Origin: a virus
Direction: 5' to 3' (one strand)
DNA: 20,896 bases
Virus record (IMG/VR): IMGVR_UViG_3300043787_000126
Location: 1 to 20,896 of that record
Shown: one piece after another, positions 5,133 to 20,406 of the stretch
Position numbering within the stretch: position 1 is the stretch's first letter
Layout of the letters: each line of letters opens with the position of its first letter
Translations under genes and position numbers: made by a program
The notes under the pieces: model-generated
Told to the model about the DNA's origin: nothing
The model's input: only the letters and a program-made list of their open reading frames with translations
Database searches by the model: none

Positions 5133-5858
5133 ATGGCTGACCTCAACCTCACCGAGACCTTCGACTTCGCGCCGTCCATCGGCGAGTGCGTCCTCAACGG
5201 CTTGAGCCGCATCCAAATTCGCGGCCCGATGGTGAAGACGGCGATGCTGCAGATGGCGGTGCAAGAGGCCAACCTGATGCAGGTCGAGTGGAGCAATCTC
5301 CAGGGCCCCAATCTGTGGGTGGTCGATGCGCAGGAGGTCTGGACCAGACCCGGCTATGCGACCTATGCCGTCGATCCGACGACGATCGCCGTCCTGGAGG
5401 TGACCCTCGGCTGGGGCGAGGGAGGCCCCATAGAAGGCTTGCAGGAGCACGGGCCGCAGGAGACTGACCTTCTCCTCACCTCGATCTCCAGAGGCCAGTA
5501 CATGGCCTATCCCAACAAGCAGATGCCTGGGCGGCCGACCGTCTACTGGTACGACATCCTGATCGAGCCGACCCTCACCCTGTGGCCTGTGCCCGACACA
5601 GCCTACAGGCTGCGCTTCACCCGCTTCCGGCGGCAGATGGACGCCTCGATGCGCAACGCCGCGAACTTTGAGGCGCCCTATCGCTTCTTGGATGCAGCGT
5701 GCGCCGGTCTCGCCGCCCGCTTGGCTGTGCACTATGCGCCCGCATTAGAGAAGGCGCGTCAGGCTCAATACGAGCGCGCTATTCAGCTTGCGATGAAGAG
5801 GGACACTGAGAACTCTCCGATATTCATTTCACCAATGTTGGAGTTCTACTCACCGTAG
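5133..5858 (+). CDS. Connector/adaptor-like head-tail joining protein
   Basis: This 241-aa protein starts immediately after the previous stop. The N-terminus is helical (KTAMLQMAVQEANLMQVEWS), followed by a beta stretch with NLWVVDAQEVWTRPGYATY. Next come ISRGQYMAYPNKQMPGRPT and a strand block with PTLTLWPVPDTAYRLRFTRF. The C-terminal helix has FRFLDAACAGLAARLAVHYA and then an ERAIQLAMKRD helix. This order (GRPT.Y..D / PTLTLWPVPD / AGLAARLA) is characteristic of phage connector, adaptor or tail-completion proteins that sit under the portal in podoviruses. I infer a neck ring component. The last 13 bp overlap the 3' end of the convergent HNH gene. Confidence 0.7.
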   Translation: MADLNLTETFDFAPSIGECVLNGLSRIQIRGPMVKTAMLQMAVQEANLMQVEWSNLQGPNLWVVDAQEVWTRPGYATYAVDPTTIAVLEVTLGWGEGGPIEGLQEHGPQETDLLLTSISRGQYMAYPNKQMPGRPTVYWYDILIEPTLTLWPVPDTAYRLRFTRFRRQMDASMRNAANFEAPYRFLDAACAGLAARLAVHYAPALEKARQAQYERAIQLAMKRDTENSPIFISPMLEFYSP

Positions 5859-6373
5859 CGGATGGAAGAGGGATGGTATTGTGCTTTAGCGCGCAAGTAG
5901 GCCTGATGGGCCTCTTCTTCGGTATCGAAACTGCCGAGATGGATAGTCTTGCGGTTGAGCAAAATTCTCGCGGCCCACTTGTTGCGCTTGCGCGAATAGC
6001 CTCGTGGGCTTTTGCGGTTGTGCTGGTTCTCGGTGGGCGTGGCCTCGCGCAAATTGCTGAGATGGGTGTTGGCAGGATCGTGGTCCCAGTGGTCAATCTC
6101 GTGGGGCGGCCAGCGGCCTTTCGCGAGCGCCCAGGCGATGCGGTGAACGAAGATGCCGTAAAGCCTGCCCTGATACCTGATCCTGGCTCTCGGATATCCG
6201 TTCGGGCTGTAGGTGACGGGTTGACCCGCGCGCAGCGCGTTGAAGATGTTCCAGCCGCGCGTTGTGGCGAAGTGCTCACGCGGCCTCGCCTTCCATCGTA
6301 CGACCCCGGTTTCCTGGTCGTAGTCGAAGCACTCGCGCAGGAACGGAATCGGGATCAGAATATCGATAGCCAT
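5846..6373 (-). CDS. HNH homing endonuclease with C-terminal AP2 domain
   Basis: This 175-aa protein is encoded on the minus strand. I chose the ATG at 6373 because GGAGG (complement of 6381-6385) precedes it at 7-nt spacing, whereas the upstream open frame is unrelated in character. Residues 1-75 hold a short beta region. His77 lies in VHRIAWALAKG, and the HNH core is IDHWDHDPANTHLSNLREAT (Asp94, His95, Asn107) followed by ENQHN. Residues of about 124-166 form an AP2-like DNA-binding domain (KWAARILLNRKTIHLGSFDT, EEAHQAY). Free-standing HNH-AP2 proteins are mobile endonucleases that copy themselves into cognate sites. The gene is antisense to the structural operon, and its 3' end overlaps the connector gene by 13 bp. 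Confidence 0.9.
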   Translation of the reverse strand: MAIDILIPIPFLRECFDYDQETGVVRWKARPREHFATTRGWNIFNALRAGQPVTYSPNGYPRARIRYQGRLYGIFVHRIAWALAKGRWPPHEIDHWDHDPANTHLSNLREATPTENQHNRKSPRGYSRKRNKWAARILLNRKTIHLGSFDTEEEAHQAYLRAKAQYHPSSIRYGE

Positions 6374-6457
6374 GGGCGCGCCTCCAGCACGTCGTTGGTC
6401 AGAGCCGGGGGTGCGTTTCCAGCGCGCCTTCGGCTCGCTTGTTTGTAGGAGGCTCCC

Positions 6458-6871
6458 ATGGGGTGGGCAAGCCAAAGCGGGAGGGCCATTACCAACCCCG
6501 AATCGCCTCGGGCGTTTGCCGTTTGCGATCGTTGCGGGATATGGTATAACCACAATAAATTAAAGTGGGATAGGCAGTGGCAGGGCACGATGATCGTGAA
6601 CCTGGGCTTCCTCGTTTGTCAGCAATGTTTGGACACGCCGAACCCCCAGCTTAAAGCGCGGTTGCTTGGGCCCGACCCAGTCCCGATCGCCAACCCTCGC
6701 CCAGAATTGTATCGCTATCCGATCAACGTCCGCGACGTCGGCGTGCAGACGGTTCACGTCCAGCCGCTCCGACCGACCGCGCCGCCGCCGCCTCGAAAGG
6801 GGCCGCTCGGAACCGAGCGCGATCCCGAGCGCAACTATCCGGCGGGCGTGCCGATGGAGATAGAACCGTGA
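6458..6871 (+). CDS. Four-cysteine zinc-ribbon phage protein
   Basis: This 137-aa protein has a strong TAGGAGG site 7 nt before its ATG. Cys23 and Cys26 (FAVCDRCGIWYNHNKLKW) and Cys54 and Cys57 (FLVCQQCLDTPNPQL) form a two-knuckle zinc ribbon. The rest is Pro-rich (PVPIANPRPELYRYP, PTAPPPPRKGPLG). The arrangement CDRCG.WYNH ... LVC..CLD.PQ matches a conserved phage protein found near connector and fibre genes, whose function is unknown. Its stop overlaps the GTG start of the giant fibre gene by 3 bp, so the two are translationally coupled. A structural or assembly-factor role is inferred from context. Confidence 0.78.
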   Translation: MGWASQSGRAITNPESPRAFAVCDRCGIWYNHNKLKWDRQWQGTMIVNLGFLVCQQCLDTPNPQLKARLLGPDPVPIANPRPELYRYPINVRDVGVQTVHVQPLRPTAPPPPRKGPLGTERDPERNYPAGVPMEIEP

Positions 6872-13249: not shown

Positions 13250-14710
13250 ATGAACCGCATTCTGATCCTGCGAAGCTCGACCGCTGGCGCCCGTCCTGTC
13301 GGACGGGACACAGGTGAGCTTTATGTGAACTTGCCCGACAACCAGTTGGGGGTGATCGACGACACGAACGCGCCCGTCGACCTGATCGCGGTGCGCCATT
13401 TCTCACCGGCAGCGAGCTATTTCACAGGGGACTGCGTCCTTTACAACGGCAGAATTTATATCGCGACGGGCATTTTTGGACCGGGGCCATTCAACCCGCT
13501 TGATTGGAACGTCGTGACGATGGCGACGGATCTCGCTCTCTACATGCCCCTATCTGGCGGCACGTTCACCGGTGTGGTGACGTTCCCCGGCAACAACAGC
13601 GTCGTTGTCAACGGAGCGGCGGCTACCCAGCGGGCCATTCTCGCTCAAAGCGCGGGGTCAAACCGCTGGCAGATGATGTTGGCGGATTCAACCCCTGAAG
13701 GCGGCGCCAACGCTGGCAGCAATTTTGTTCTCACGCCGATGAGTGACACAGGAGGGTTTCTTCCGGCTGCGCTGACCATTGAGCGCGCCACCAGCGTTGT
13801 TGATTTCGCTGTGCCTCCGACCGTCGCCGGTGCGCCCTTGGGCGGCGGTTCTTCTTATACCTTACCGCCCGCTACGACGACCACGCTGGGTGGCGTCAAG
13901 CCTGACGGGACAACGATTACAGCGGCGGTTGACGGCACGATCTCGGCGGTCCCGTCTGGTGGCGGTGGCGGGGGTGGCGTCGGCGAAAATCTAATTATTA
14001 ACGGCAACTTCGCCATCAATCAGCGCGCCTACGTTTCTGGCACGGCGCTCCCCGCAGTCCCGACCATCATGAACGGTTACGGCCATGACCGCTGGAAGGC
14101 GGGCGCAGGTGGCTGCACCTACACATTCGCGGCGGTGATTCCAGATACGACTGTGACGATTACCGCAGGAACGTTGACCCAGATCATCGAGGCTGGGGTC
14201 ATCGATGGCGGTCCGTACACCCTATCCTGGGCAGGAACAGCGCAGGCGAGAGTTTACCAAGGTGCTCCCACCGGCGCTTATGCAGCGAGCCCCCTCACCA
14301 CGCCAGCGTTGACTCCTGGCGTAAACACCATAGTCGAGTTCAACACTGGAACGGTAACGCGGGTTAAATTTGAAAGTGGAGCCGCTGCCACGCCGTTCAA
14401 CCGACTGTCGATGGCTAGATGTATGACAGAGTGTCAGAGATACTACCAAATTGGCACCCTTTATTGTGATGGCCTTTACGCAGCAAATGCTGGCAACGCT
14501 ATTTATTTTAGTAACACATGCCCAGTCCCTCCACGAACTGGGGCGACCGCAACAATGACAATCGTAAGGAACACGTCGACAAACCTAGGCGCTACTCCGT
14601 CACTTAATCATGATCCACCGCCAGGGAATATGTTTTATGTAAATGCATCGGCAACGGCCGTAGGGACTGCAAGGGTAAACATTAGATATAGTGCGAATGC
14701 GGAGCTTTAA
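13250..14710 (+). CDS. Tail fibre with class I anchor and 'NLIINGNF' distal domain
   Basis: This 486-aa protein has GAGGGG just before the ATG. The class I anchor (ILILRSSTAGARPVGRDTGE) is followed by a CBM5/12-like segment (SPAASYFTGDCVLYNGRIY, FNPLDWNVV). Residues of about 139-190 are a beta-module beginning RWQMMLADSTPEGGANAGSN, shared with the fibre at 17521. A TLGGVKPDGTTITAAVDGT segment precedes a seven-Gly linker (residues 237-243). The distal domain begins ENLIINGNFAINQRAYVSG, continues with YGHDRWKAG and carries CMTECQRYYQ. This matches a widespread fibre domain ('NL.INGNF.INQRG ... DRW ... CQRYY') presumed to contact the host surface. The last 400 bp are AT-richer than the anchor. 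Confidence 0.85.
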   Translation: MNRILILRSSTAGARPVGRDTGELYVNLPDNQLGVIDDTNAPVDLIAVRHFSPAASYFTGDCVLYNGRIYIATGIFGPGPFNPLDWNVVTMATDLALYMPLSGGTFTGVVTFPGNNSVVVNGAAATQRAILAQSAGSNRWQMMLADSTPEGGANAGSNFVLTPMSDTGGFLPAALTIERATSVVDFAVPPTVAGAPLGGGSSYTLPPATTTTLGGVKPDGTTITAAVDGTISAVPSGGGGGGGVGENLIINGNFAINQRAYVSGTALPAVPTIMNGYGHDRWKAGAGGCTYTFAAVIPDTTVTITAGTLTQIIEAGVIDGGPYTLSWAGTAQARVYQGAPTGAYAASPLTTPALTPGVNTIVEFNTGTVTRVKFESGAAATPFNRLSMARCMTECQRYYQIGTLYCDGLYAANAGNAIYFSNTCPVPPRTGATATMTIVRNTSTNLGATPSLNHDPPPGNMFYVNASATAVGTARVNIRYSANAEL

Positions 14711-14712
14711 AC

Positions 14713-15321
14713 ATGGCTCTCTATTTTCCCGATACCCCTGCCATTGGCGATGAGTTTGAAAACGGCTTCGTCAAGTGGATTTGGGACGGTATCAAATGGA
14801 CGGGCGGCGGCGCCGTTGAGGATATGACTCCCTACCTACCGTTAACGGGCGGGACGATGACTGGCCCTTTGGCGGTTTCAGATGCTAATCTAGCGGTTGC
14901 GGGGGGAACGAGCGGTCAACTCCTGACCACGGACGGCAGTAGCAATCTGACATGGCAGGATAGCAGTAGCAGTGTCAATGCTACTCAACTTCTTGCGGTT
15001 CTGGCTGTTGATGGCCCGCTGCTTTCAAACAGCACTCCGACGTCTTTGTTGCCAGTGGCGGCGAAGTTCAATGCACCAGCAAACTTTTTCACAGTTGGTA
15101 AGACGTGCCGTCTTCAGATGTCTGGGTTTTTTTACGCCAATGTCCTTGGTTGTACGTTTGCATTTGATATTCAATTCGGAGGCACTACGACAATTATGGG
15201 CGGTTTCACCCCCCTTCAATCGACTCAACCGTGTCAAACGTCATCGACGTGTTTGGTCAGCTGGCCTCGACGGCGACGACTTATAGTCTTCAACTGTTCC
15301 AATACACTCTGGAGTCGCTGA
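14713..15321 (+). CDS. Short fibre with class II anchor and jelly-roll-like domain; 3' end probably damaged
   Basis: The protein is 202 aa as read. The class II anchor (LYFPDTPAIGDEFENGFVKW, WDGIKW) is followed by a LPLTGGTMTGPLAV repeat, a GQLLTTDGSSNLTWQDS segment and a beta-domain (LPVAAKFNAPANFFTVGKTC, FAFDIQFGGTT) resembling TNF/C1q-like fibre heads. From about 15210 the in-frame peptide turns implausible (CLVSWPRRRRL). The -1 frame gives SIDSTVSNVIDVFGQLAS and TYSLQLFQYTLESLN, ending at 15326, which looks like the expected last strands. The frame change falls at a C6 tract (15209-15214). Middle strands of the fold also seem to be missing. A damaged gene, a phase-variable tract or a sequencing error are all possible. 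Confidence 0.7.
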   Translation: MALYFPDTPAIGDEFENGFVKWIWDGIKWTGGGAVEDMTPYLPLTGGTMTGPLAVSDANLAVAGGTSGQLLTTDGSSNLTWQDSSSSVNATQLLAVLAVDGPLLSNSTPTSLLPVAAKFNAPANFFTVGKTCRLQMSGFFYANVLGCTFAFDIQFGGTTTIMGGFTPLQSTQPCQTSSTCLVSWPRRRRLIVFNCSNTLWSR

Positions 15322-15337
15322 ACTGAGCGTACGATCT

Positions 15338-15353
15338 GGCGTCATATGACGCC
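15338..15353. promoter_or_regulatory. Perfect 16-bp palindrome between fibre genes
   Basis: GGCGTCATATGACGCC is a perfect palindrome in the 54-bp gap between the fibre genes at 14713 and 15376. It is flanked by a direct repeat CTGAGCG (15323-15329 and 15354-15360). It could be a dimeric protein-binding site, an RNA hairpin (GGCGU/ACGCC stem) or a recombination-associated site. There is no T-tract. Confidence 0.5.
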
Positions 15354-15375
15354 CTGAGCGAGAGGCTAGATAGCC

Positions 15376-17517
15376 ATGACGAATCGGATTCAAACAATCA
15401 GGAGTTCTGTTCCGCTCGCCCGTCCAGTGGGACGATTCCCCGGAGAACTCTACACCAACTGGGCGGATCTGCAGCTTGGCGTGATCAACGCCAGCAACAC
15501 CCCGATCGATCTGATTGCGGTGCGTTTCTTTTCCAGCACGGCGGCTTACAACCTCGGCGACTTCGTCATCTTCAATGGCGACCTCTGGTGCGCGATCGGC
15601 CCAGTGGCGCCAGGGCCGTTCGCGCCTAATCAATGGGCCGTGCTGGTCGGCGAAGTCGACTTCGCGGTGAGGAAGTTCTCGCCGACGTCGAGCTACGCTA
15701 CCGGCGATTTCGTCACCTACAACAGCGTCCTCTATGTCGCCAATCAGGCGGTCAGTCCAGGGACGTTCAATCCGCTGCAATGGGATCAGATCGGCCCTGG
15801 CGGGGTTCCTGGACCTCCTGGCGTCGCGGGACCGCCAGGGGTTCCTGGACCCCCCGGAGGCGATGTTTCCATTGGCCCCTTGCCGCCTCCCAATCCGGTT
15901 GACGGCGATCTGTGGTTCAACCCTCCTCCCGTCGATGAACTGACGATCTGGTACGACCCTGGCACGGGCGCTGGCGGGTCATGGGTCCTGGTTAGCGGCG
16001 GGGCGTCGGGAACGCCGCCGTCTGGCGGCCCGTTCTTGCCGCTTGGCGGCGGGACCATGCTCGGCAATCTCATTTTAAATGCCGATCCAACCGCTGCGCT
16101 GGGCGCAGCGACCAAGGAATATGTTGACGACAGCATCGCAACAGCCATTGCGGGCCTTCCCCCTGGCGGTGGCGGTGGCGGCGGAGGTGGGGGTGTTACT
16201 GGATCGGGTTGGACCAAAGTTATTGATAATGTTATGATACAGCCCGGTAATAGAACGGCTGTTTTTAATAATATTCCATTGACTGGTGGCACTTTGATGA
16301 TGTTCATTAGTAGTTTAGCCACCAATACTCTTACTGGTAATTTATATTTGGATGTATCGGCTGACAACGGTGTAACATGGTCAACTCAGAATATGCTCAT
16401 TTGGGCGTTTGATTCTTTGAGTTCTCCTAGTTACATTGTTAGTACTGGTTTTATAATTGACGGCTATTCAAACGACTTTGGCATATGCACCGTTATGCCG
16501 GTTGATGACGTAGTATCGCCTACTAATCCTGGTGTTGTTCCTCAAGTTGGGCCGGGTGTAGCGGCGGGTGGTGGCGTTACAATTGTCGCCATGGGTGGTT
16601 TTACGTCACACGTTGGCGGGTGCAACGCGCTTAGAATACGTGCCGAGCGTGATTTTATTCCTGAAGCATGGGTGTGGCTGTACATAGATAATGCTATCGG
16701 AAGTGGAGGGGGCGGTGGAGGCGGAGGTCCGCTCGTCGTGCCGCCGCCGACGGCTGCAAACTGGTCCACTGTGAACTTTTCATATTCGGCAGGTCCAGAT
16801 GTCCTGCTAGTTGATGTTCCAGGCGGGGTGGCGTTTCAGGCTCTTTCGAATGCGCAGACTGGTCAAAGTAATTATTGTTCGGCAATAAGTGTTGGGTCGC
16901 AACCTGTGCCTCCGTATACGCTTGACATTGCTATTTCTGCTCTTGGCTTGTTCCTCGACCCAACCGCTGGTTATACCGGCAATTTGTCGTTTGGTGTTGG
17001 GTTGGCGCAAGATCTGAATGTGAACACAGGGTTTGCAATGATGCAGATTGGGGGTTATGACGGTCAAAGTAGGTGGGCTAATAATCTAGTGAACGTTGTT
17101 AATGCGGCTTATCTAAATTATCTTGGAAGTAGTCTTCTCCCCACTGGAAACGGTTATGTTATTTCAAATCTTGGAAACAAGGTATGGCTTCGTATCATTC
17201 AGACAGCGACGACGACGTCGTTTCAAATCAGCACTGACGGGTTAAGTTACCTGCCTGTGTACACAACCGCACTGTTCTATACGATCCCTATAGTGGCGTT
17301 GTTCACTGGTGGACTTGGCGGTCAACTTCCGTATTACGGCAATCAAGCTCAACTTGTTATAAATTCTTGGAACCTCCAGGGGCCGAATATACCATTTCGC
17401 TTAGACGCGCCCCCGGCACTGCTTCCGGAGGAGCCGCCAGCCCCCTTGGTCCGAGCGACCCACATCCCGTCGCGGCGTGAAGCGCGGCGGATCGCCGCCA
17501 TGCAGAAGAGGGGATGA
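15376..17517 (+). CDS. Large tail fibre, class I anchor with two AT-rich distal domains
   Basis: This 713-aa protein has GAGAGG about 11 nt before the ATG. The class I anchor (IQTIRSSVPLARPVGRFPGE) is followed by two CBM5/12-like segments (YNLGDFVIFNG and YATGDFVTYNSVLYVAN). A GPP-type collagen stretch lies at residues 140-162. Next is a PPPNPVDGDLWFNPP segment akin to the adaptor repeats at 19411, then a YVD repeat. Ten glycines (264-273) start distal domain 1 (274-443). Eight more (444-451) start distal domain 2 (about 452-675). The two distal domains are unfamiliar and AT-rich (26/60 and 20/60 GC at 16201-16320). The last 38 residues are Pro-rich then basic (SRREARRIAAMQKRG), back in GC-rich DNA. 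It is probably a receptor-binding fibre. Confidence 0.82.
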   Translation: MTNRIQTIRSSVPLARPVGRFPGELYTNWADLQLGVINASNTPIDLIAVRFFSSTAAYNLGDFVIFNGDLWCAIGPVAPGPFAPNQWAVLVGEVDFAVRKFSPTSSYATGDFVTYNSVLYVANQAVSPGTFNPLQWDQIGPGGVPGPPGVAGPPGVPGPPGGDVSIGPLPPPNPVDGDLWFNPPPVDELTIWYDPGTGAGGSWVLVSGGASGTPPSGGPFLPLGGGTMLGNLILNADPTAALGAATKEYVDDSIATAIAGLPPGGGGGGGGGGVTGSGWTKVIDNVMIQPGNRTAVFNNIPLTGGTLMMFISSLATNTLTGNLYLDVSADNGVTWSTQNMLIWAFDSLSSPSYIVSTGFIIDGYSNDFGICTVMPVDDVVSPTNPGVVPQVGPGVAAGGGVTIVAMGGFTSHVGGCNALRIRAERDFIPEAWVWLYIDNAIGSGGGGGGGGPLVVPPPTAANWSTVNFSYSAGPDVLLVDVPGGVAFQALSNAQTGQSNYCSAISVGSQPVPPYTLDIAISALGLFLDPTAGYTGNLSFGVGLAQDLNVNTGFAMMQIGGYDGQSRWANNLVNVVNAAYLNYLGSSLLPTGNGYVISNLGNKVWLRIIQTATTTSFQISTDGLSYLPVYTTALFYTIPIVALFTGGLGGQLPYYGNQAQLVINSWNLQGPNIPFRLDAPPALLPEEPPAPLVRATHIPSRREARRIAAMQKRG
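16165..16194 (+). repeat. Polyglycine linker (10 Gly) at a composition boundary
   Basis: GGN codons encode residues 264-273 of the large fibre. Upstream DNA is GC-rich (37/60 at 15421-15480), and DNA directly downstream falls to 33-43% GC. Similar Gly runs lie at 12089-12109, 13958-13978, 16705-16728 and 17623-17640. Confidence 0.85.
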
Positions 17518-17520
17518 CCC

Positions 17521-18549
17521 ATGCTCGACTTCCCTAATAACCCGACAGTTGGGCAGACCTTCGTTTCTGCCGGCGCAACTTGGACTTGGGACGGCGTGAA
17601 ATGGAGAGGCAGCGCCGCCTCGGGTGGTGGTGGCGGCGGCGTCCCAGAAGCCCCGCTCGATGGCCAGCAATATGGTCGTCAGAGCGCCGCTTGGACGGTT
17701 GTGCCTACAGGTCAGGGTGGCGGCGGGGGTGGTTTGCCCCTGACTGGCGGCGCCTTGACGGGCCCCTTGATCCTTGCCGGAGATCCTACGGTTCCGCTTG
17801 GCGCCGCGACCAAGCAGTATGTCGATGCCCATTCCGGCTCGGGGGGCCTCGCGGACGCGCCGACTGATGGTCAGCTTTATGGTCGTCAAAGCGCGGCTTG
17901 GGCCGTCGTGCCGACTGGTGGCGGAACCGCTGGAACGATCACCAGTCCGGTAAAGATAAACGGAGCGGGAGCGACGCCGTATCCAGGGACGTTTGATCCT
18001 GCCGCTGCGGATCTGATCCTGAACAAAGCCGGTGCGACCCACTTTGCGGCGATCACCCTTACGAACAATGGCTCGGTTCGCTGGCAGATGGGTTCTGACA
18101 CGAATAATGAGACTGGCTCACCCCCCAACTCTGGATCAGGGTTTTTCATTTCGAACTTCTCTGACTCTGGGGCGTCGCTCTCCCTGCCGCTCCAGATCAG
18201 CCGCGCAACGGGCGTCGTCACCTTTGCGCAGCCGATCGTCAACGGCAGCGACGGGCGGTCGAAGCGGAACATTGAGCCGGTCAAGGATGCGCTCGCCATC
18301 ATCAGCCAATTGCAGGGCGTGTTCTACCAATTCAAGTCCGATCCCCGGCGACAGGTGGGGCTGATCGCGCAGGATGTCATTAAGCCGCTGCCAGAGGTGG
18401 TGTTTGAGGCGCCCCCGCAGTCGAGCGATCCGAGAGACCCTGCCAACCCGATGCTGGGCATCGCCTATTCGAACATCGTCGCGGTGCTCATCAACGCTCT
18501 GAATGAGCTATCGGCAAAAGTTCAAGCTCTTGAGGCCAAAGCTCGATGA
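17521..18549 (+). CDS. Fibre with class II anchor and C-terminal S74 chaperone
   Basis: This 342-aa protein has GAGGGG upstream of the ATG. The class II anchor ([26 protein letters not shown]) leads to a Gly6 linker and two DAP/EAP-type cassettes ([24 protein letters not shown], 207 bp apart). [15 protein letters not shown] / YVD repeat lies between them. Residues of about 187-240 ([20 protein letters not shown]) match the module in the fibre at 13250. The S74 domain starts at Ser243 (S-D-G-R-S-K248, spacing five kept) with QVGLIAQDV and a terminal coiled helix ([16 protein letters not shown]). It should self-cleave after trimer assembly. The last 28 bp overlap the convergent HNH gene. Confidence 0.88.
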
Positions 18550-19028
18550 CGTCTGTTGGCCGCCTGTTCCTTTCGCGTCGCCCATCGACAGTTGCTCGGC
18601 TCGTAGCTGCCATTGTTATCAATTCGCTCTATCGTCATGCCAGGAGGCGGTTCGCCCATGTCGGCAAGAAAGTTTTCGAAATTGTGCCAACGGGCGCAAA
18701 CGCCAATACCACGGGCTCCGTAGGCTTCGAAGCTGGAACTGTTGGGGTTTTTGCATCGCTGGATCATCGTTGCCCAGCGCGTAAAGGCCGACGATCTCTT
18801 GCCAACGCGCGAGTGTCCATGGCTGAGATTAAGAGAGCCTGCGATTTCTCGTTGGCGACAGCCACAACTGGTCGTGTTCCCCGAAGTCAGCGCGCCAACC
18901 CAAGCAATCATCTCTGCTCCACAATCGCAGTGGCAGAGCCATCGCGAGCCGCCTTTCTTCATGGCCAAGAGGCGGATGACCGTGAGCCGCCCAAAGCGTT
19001 GATTCGTGATATCTCGGAAAGCGGGCAT
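18522..19028 (-). CDS. HNH-type homing endonuclease with N-terminal zinc ribbon
   Basis: This 168-aa protein is encoded on the minus strand. The ATG at 19028 is chosen because GGAGAGG precedes it and the family's usual start ([12 protein letters not shown]) follows. Cys32, 34 and 36 with Cys55 and 57 ([16 protein letters not shown]) form a zinc-ribbon N-terminus. Then come [28 protein letters not shown] and FLADMGEPP, with the C-terminal [20 protein letters not shown] and KEQAANRR. This matches a common free-standing phage endonuclease family annotated as HNH or AP2/HNH. It is antisense to the structural operon and overlaps the end of the S74 fibre gene by 28 bp, the same arrangement as the HNH gene at 5846. 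The two proteins are not close relatives. Confidence 0.87.
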
Positions 19029-19061
19029 GGCGACCTCTCCACAAGGTTGCTGCGTCAAGTG

Positions 19062-19090
19062 ACGACCGGGTGTTCCAAGCACTCGGTCGT
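19062..19090. promoter_or_regulatory. Strong 11-bp hairpin between the HNH gene and the adaptor gene
   Basis: ACGACCGGGTG (19062-19072) pairs with CACTCGGTCGT (19080-19090) around a 7-nt loop, with one G-U pair on the + strand. On + transcripts it lies 29 nt before the adaptor start. On minus transcripts it lies in the HNH leader. There is no T-tract on the + side, so it may be a leader structure or processing site rather than a terminator. Confidence 0.5.
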
Positions 19091-19119
19091 TGCGCAATTG
19101 TAGCATTAGACGGTTCGCC

Positions 19120-20406
19120 ATGTACACCTACACGACGTTCCAGAATGCCCTGGCGATCGAGATGGCGGTCCCTAACAACGACCCCACCGACGCCCAGTTC
19201 GTCGCCATCCTGCAGACCCTGATCGATCAAGCCGAACAGCGGTGCTACCGCGACCTCGACCTCCTCTACGCCACCTCGACGCAAATCGCCCATCTGACGC
19301 GCGGCTCATCGAAGCTCGACTTCTCCAGTCTCATGCCGCAGCTTTTGATCTTGGAGGACGTCAACCTCGTCGTCACAGACCACAACGTCGTCGGCGCTGC
19401 GGTGATCATCAGCGACGGCCCGCCCGCTGGGCCGGTCAACGGCTCCCTGTGGTTCAGCAGCACGGACGCGCAATTGTATGTTCTGTTCGTTGATCCAAAC
19501 TCGACCCAATGGGTGATCGCGACCAACCAGGGGACGGGCGGCCCAGCGGGCGTAGGCGGCGGAAGCAGCGGCGGCTCCGCGCGCGCCATAGTCAGCGACG
19601 CTCCACCCTTGAACCCTGCGAACGGCGCGCTCTGGTTCAGCAGCAGCGATGCGCAACTTTACGTCTGGTACAACGATGGCGACTCATCCCAATGGGTGAT
19701 CGCGACCAATCCGGGCTCCGGCGGCGCGCCGAGAAGCAAGGGAAGTCGCAGCATTAGCGCTACTGCCAACCTCGCGTCCGTCGGCGATGCTCCGCCGCCT
19801 TCGCCAGCCAATGGCGCGCTCTGGTTCAGCACCACTGACGCTCAGTTGTACGTCTGGTACGACGATGGGGTTTCCGCGCAATGGGTGATCGCCGTCAATC
19901 CAGGTGACCAGATAGATGGCGGCGCTTTCTTGGCCGCCGACCAGGGCGAGCGCGTGCCGCTCGTTCCCGTCAGCAAAGAATGGCTGCGCATGGTCTACGG
20001 GCTGAGCAAGACCAGGGGCATGCCAGAATATTACGCCATGAACGACGACCATTCGATCCTGGTCGGGCCTTTCCCCGATCAGAATTACGCGACAGAATTG
20101 ATCGGAAAATTCCGCCCGACGCCTCTCTATCAGGCGGCCCCTGGCGATGGGACGCAGACGACTGTCTTGACCGCGATCCTGCCGGATCTCTTCCTCGCCG
20201 CCGCGATGTGCGCGGGCTCTGCTTACCAGCACAATTGGAGCGCCTCGGCCGACGATCCACGCCAATCGATGTCGTGGGAGACGAACTATCAGACGCTGCT
20301 CGCTCCCGCCCAGGCCGAAGAGATGCGGAAGAAGGTGCACGGGTGGATGGGATTGACGTCCGAGAAGGCGCCGCCGCCGACGCCGCCCGCCACACCGGGG
20401 CCGTGA
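19120..20406 (+). CDS. Adaptor-like neck protein with three inserted fibre-type repeats
   Basis: The protein is 428 aa from the ATG at 19120, where the family N-terminus begins; a TTG 30 bp upstream lies in the hairpin and is less likely. Residues 1-90 ([20 protein letters not shown]) and 275-415 ([66 protein letters not shown]) form two halves of the adaptor family found in podoviruses such as SU10. It would sit between portal and tail. Between them, residues of about 98-262 are three tandem copies of a '[28 protein letters not shown]' repeat, a module normally seen in fibres. The C-terminus is Pro-rich. The next gene starts 3 bp after the stop. Confidence 0.78.
19411..19905 (+). repeat. Three tandem LWFS / QLYVWY protein repeats
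   Basis: Copies start at 19411, 19594 and 19783 (spacing 183 and 189 bp). Key segments are [36 protein letters not shown] and [18 protein letters not shown], each followed by QWVIA. They are joined by Gly/Ser-rich linkers ([20 protein letters not shown]). Copies 2 and 3 are the closest pair. Confidence 0.92.

Follow-up and report, generated by a model that had tools for sequence, protein, structure and literature searches.

A short-fibre gene of an uncultured podovirus, probably broken in both tip and frame by one internal deletion rather than by a homopolymer slip

A programmed -1 frameshift canonically takes place on a slip heptamer that follows the X XXY YYZ rule, helped by a stimulatory structure, and a phase-variable homopolymer gene carries a long tract whose length varies within the population. 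For phase variation, the portions of the literature consulted, including those of PMC10877375, yielded no recognised case of a phage fibre gene that contains such a tract. The closest relatives of the fibre tip described here form a family of standalone phage proteins, in which the middle of the domain is intact and the whole is read in a single frame.

The window, that is, the whole stretch of DNA analysed, is a 20,896-base virus record in which fibre genes lie in series, and the gene at 14713-15321 is the subject of this analysis. The window belongs to an uncultured podovirus, and this gene is a short-fibre gene. The window encodes a major-capsid-like protein with 84-100% identity to its counterparts in 52 other viral contigs (L002-L053), and an SU10-adaptor-like protein. 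Neither Rfam nor tRNA scanning gave a match in the window. At 5846-6553, between structural genes, the minus strand encodes an HNH_3 endonuclease (E 1e-12) that also matches AP2 below threshold. The features of the fibre gene are as follows.

14713..15321, plus strand: fibre gene in frame 0, 202 aa, with an N-terminal anchor module (FPDTP..WxWDGxKW) followed by a shortened TNF-like tip and a tail that is out of frame
14983..15204, plus strand: first half of the TNF-like tip domain in frame 0 (profile positions 9-78, 32-34 bits; codon usage +0.177 bits/codon)
15205..15214, plus strand: junction TTCA-CCCCCC, with the probable deletion joint at or just left of C6 (15209-15214)
15210..15326, plus strand: the two final strands of the tip, read in the -1 frame up to the ancestral TGA stop at 15324-15326 (profile positions 155-189, the profile end; +0.327 bits/codon)
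15214..15321, plus strand: out-of-frame Cys/Arg-rich tail, now encoded by frame 0 (codon usage -0.671 bits/codon)

The tip family and the change of frame

The family was reached with a bait of 98 residues, a phage fibre-tip consensus, which found 76 viral loci; their 73 distinct sequences gave the family profile. Scanning again, now with alignment A1, brought in a further 78 viral loci and one genome locus, partly on the same contigs again, for a total of 155 loci (L155-L308 and L309) with one matching ORF each and 126 distinct ORFs. Members carry the motifs SNIVTTPGT and GTGFDST. This gives a profile for a tip family of which the six members checked matched nothing in PHROGs and reached the cut-off nowhere in Pfam, where one of them, L156, gave a sub-threshold match to FLgD_tudor. 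The bait consensus itself matched nothing in the phages collection or PHROGs, and the phages collection held only two distant relatives of the family.

Direct searches with the window's own sequences returned little. The 202-aa protein had no match in the viral contigs, and in the phages collection it matched through its anchor region only, in 13 cyanophage records. The joined 116-aa tip had no match in phages, viral contigs, genome contigs or plasmids, and a PDB search by sequence gave nothing relevant. Two sets of candidates were set aside. A weak match to phrog_26630 (14.8 bits for the joined tip, 10.6 for frame 0) was dropped, as the C-terminal match in L096 ends in GWVGFSG and is, by eye, another domain; tblastn matches to L096 and L143 (E 1.7 and 3.1), obtained with the joined tip, were not taken as homologues.

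The frame-0 protein ends in ...GGFTPLQSTQPCQTSSTCLVSWPRRRRLIVFNCSNTLWSR (202 aa, stop at 15321), and the -1 frame reads PPSIDSTVSNVIDVFGQLASTATTYSLQLFQYTLESLN from 15210 to a TGA stop at 15324-15326. The original prediction, that the fibre gene contains a frame break near a C6 tract, is borne out: the tract lies at 15209-15214, and profile matches and codon usage change frame at one place (about 15207). The frame-0 protein carries the N-terminal half of the family domain, matching the profile over positions 9-91 with 34.0 bits (E 3.3e-8). The part before the junction alone scores 32.9 bits, so that the 13 positions by which the match runs beyond 78 into the protein's own tail gain only about a bit. 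The -1 peptide matches positions 155-189 with about 21.8-21.9 bits, ending on the last position of the profile, and the conserved C-terminal strands FDSTxAxxxDLF...QYxLESLN are found in that frame only (E 4.9e-4). This C-terminal match is independent of the bait because the bait ends before the last ~60 residues of the family.

The two matches stand well apart from background. In a six-frame ORF search (n=31,933, the ORFs taken from 154 non-family loci and the window), values of E < 1 were reached only by the frame-0 gene (3.3e-8) and the -1 ORF (4.9e-4). Both appear twice in the result, since L001 duplicates the window. Among 1000 shuffles of the -1 peptide the best score was 6.4 bits, against 21.9 for the real peptide. 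The profile matches and the shuffle test therefore show that the last two strands were ancestrally read in frame -1. A codon-usage model trained on twelve window ORFs scored frame 0 best before the tract (+0.177 bits/codon); after it, frame -1 scored +0.327, frame 0 -0.671 and frame +1 -0.558 bits/codon.

These results also bear on the two endings. The in-frame Arg-rich ending had been described as unlike protein, and the frame-0 tail, with its poor codon usage, indeed draws no match to the family profile when searched alone. The -1 reading had been proposed as the final beta-strand pair of the fold, and it is a genuine one, closing a fibre domain that is predicted to be TNF-like. The finding named as speaking against this assignment was an Arg-rich peptide shared by the ends of homologues; the family ends instead as the -1 frame does.

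The missing middle of the domain

The gene holds both halves of the domain, changes frame between them and lacks the part in between. Profile positions 78 and 155 lie only 10 residues apart in the window, versus 67-89 (median 76) in 125 family ORFs. Both halves lie in a single frame in 125 of the 126 distinct family ORFs, and the remaining one runs off its contig. The window gene thus departs from what defines the family, a whole domain in one frame with its central strands. Relative to the family, approximately 57-79 residues are absent from the window at the junction; relative to L156, the absent residues are 87-144 and 151-154 (62 residues). A profile search for the missing middle elsewhere in the window did not find it.

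The break can be placed closely. Alignment A1 stops after G164 (codon 15202-15204) and picks up at the FTPP columns, whose Pro codons in the -1 frame begin at 15210. The joint thus falls within about 15205-15210, on the C tract or to its left. An exact 10-base direct repeat, GGCGGTTTCA, occurs at 14871-14880 and 15199-15208, and its second copy touches C6 at the probable joint; we have no explanation for this repeat beyond chance.

The AF2 model of L156 (52 sequences) was confident, with pLDDT 88.8 and pTM 0.85. Its best PDB matches by VIA-align were two TNF-like lectins, the N-terminal domain of BC2L-C (Z 8.3 over 121 residues) and PLTL (Z 8.1 over 123 residues), both at rmsd 3.0. The modelled fold resembles theirs, although identity is only 4-8% and Z is near the common jelly-roll level. 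Foldseek ranked the phage J-1 Dit CBM2 module and legume lectins above the TNF-like lectins, and in a viral structure library uncharacterised Caudovirales proteins came out on top (best E 2.8e-12). The predicted fold of the family is a TNF-like jelly roll. In the L156 model, strands 88-90, 95-111, 116-127 and 139-143 fall within the residues absent from the window, and would represent 4 of the 11 strands of the predicted jelly roll, the two longest among them. The AF2 model of the actual 202-aa product was poor (pLDDT 52.8, pTM 0.37; residues 185-202 below 50), and as it drew on 27 sequences only, it possibly understates the fold.

Deletion, slippage and chimera as explanations

We consider it probable that this is a damaged short-fibre gene in which one internal deletion, rather than a homopolymer slip, broke both tip and frame. 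The ancestral gene would have consisted of the anchor module and, C-terminal to it, a TNF-like jelly-roll tip ending in ...IDSTVSNVIDVFG...QYTLESLN-TGA (15324-15326). A single deletion in the phage DNA, some 190-200 nt or about 60-66 codons long, would then have taken out four central tip strands, with its joint at or just left of C6, and left the two final strands in the -1 frame. From there frame 0 would enter a random Cys/Arg-rich tail, end at 15321 and leave a tip that presumably does not fold. The deletion length should be 1 mod 3, because a gene once in frame was left with its tail in the -1 frame. A history of two events, an in-frame loss and later the loss of one base, is possible, and the deletion ends are not seen directly, because an intact close relative of the tip was not found in the collections searched.

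The original prediction had explained the switch by a one-base loss in the C tract, and as the whole cause this is not supported: a slip of one base cannot account for the approximately 57-79 residues that are also absent there. Such a loss, by mutation or sequencing error, would have to have struck a gene otherwise intact whose tip is naturally compact. That account agrees with the frame relation, which is that of one missing base, with the tract sitting at the switch and with flanks that are still coding-like on both sides. Against it, no compact form occurs among the 125 family ORFs (67 residues or more where the window has 10), the absent part includes the two longest strands of the fold, and the C6 run is ordinary in the window, where C/G runs of at least 6 bases number 6 versus 14.6 expected under a first-order Markov model; with fewer such runs than expected, the tract by itself is no signal. 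We rejected a naturally compact tip on the family counts, and a one-base sequencing error is likewise unsupported as the cause. A compact subfamily is still conceivable because the tip domain of the window is divergent (30-43% to 23 homologues of A1). We rate this account as unlikely. An assembly or library chimera, in which the deletion is absent from any real phage, seems to us quite unlikely. The evidence is a single IMG/VR metagenomic contig, and a closely related contig (see below) differs at the same place, so that the population may be mixed; but there is no long repeat at the junction, and in 14600-15450 the only listed repeat touching it is the 10-mer (14871/15199). Ten bases are short for an assembler mis-join.

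It is more doubtful still, and in our judgement very improbable, that the tract serves a function, whether through C6 phase variation, a programmed -1 frameshift or transcriptional slippage, and yields two C-termini of nearly equal length. Both frames are open up to their stops at 15321 and 15326, and re-pairing of a P-site CCC one base back is conceivable. The zero-frame codons ACC CCC CTT, however, do not form the canonical slip site, and downstream RNA folding is not unusual (z = 0.16 for pseudoknot-free folding). Phase variation, which the original prediction had raised alongside sequencing error, is not supported: the tract is short, and a pattern scan of the viral contigs for the two flanks at a spacing of 5-9 bases gave no variant, although records very near the window may be omitted from that search. 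A frame change is used by none of the 125 homologues, and the central strands are absent even from the -1 product. If the tract did work as a switch, by slippage in replication or transcription or by a ribosomal slip, one fibre would exist in two versions, with a compact TNF-like tip when the -1 frame is read and a Cys/Arg-rich tail when frame 0 is read. We give this scant credence, and the gene has the look of a commonplace damaged one, not of an on/off switch. The case carries a caution, in that a frame break beside a homopolymer is not necessarily a slip and homologues can reveal a larger missing piece.

Tip turnover and comparison with related fibres

A sister phage, IMGVR_UViG_3300021479_000061, is 95-99% identical over most of the compared flanks and 93% over 13957-14959, which includes the diverged anchor. 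Homology breaks off at 14959 and restarts at 15324, the -1 stop codon, as expected if this stop is the true end of the module. A perfect 16-base palindrome, GGCGTCATATGACGCC, lies directly 3' of the fibre gene at 15338-15353 and is conserved in the sister phage; it is possibly an operator or processing site. Elsewhere, at 18498-19117, about 560 bases are not present in the sister phage and contain a 201-aa minus-strand ORF (18522-19127) that by eye resembles an HNH-type homing endonuclease, with no match in Pfam.

The fibre gene of the sister phage (L106:8729-9088) has the same kind of anchor module and the same genomic place as that of the window, with 67% identity over residues 1-104. Its tip is replaced by approximately 20 residues ending in FNVTLDAEL, giving a protein of 119 aa in one frame. 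This ending resembles VTFGVNLDAEL, the last residues of another fibre gene on the same contig, but the resemblance is not significant (E 3.3). In the neighbouring fibre gene of the window (13250-14710), compared with L106:7749-8726, the tip is nearly identical and the anchor and linker are different, a case of module exchange. When 50 virus records, the window's own included, were searched with the family profile, the tip was found in the window only. The different tip of the sister and this restricted distribution indicate that the tip site turns over, and fibre tips at this site appear both to turn over and to decay among closely related phages.

The family proteins, of approximately 185-200 aa, share with the window the N-terminal half of the domain (profile 9-78) and the C-terminal strands (155-189, ..ESLN). 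Unlike them, the window copy is fused to an anchor module, is without approximately 60 residues of the middle and is split over two frames.
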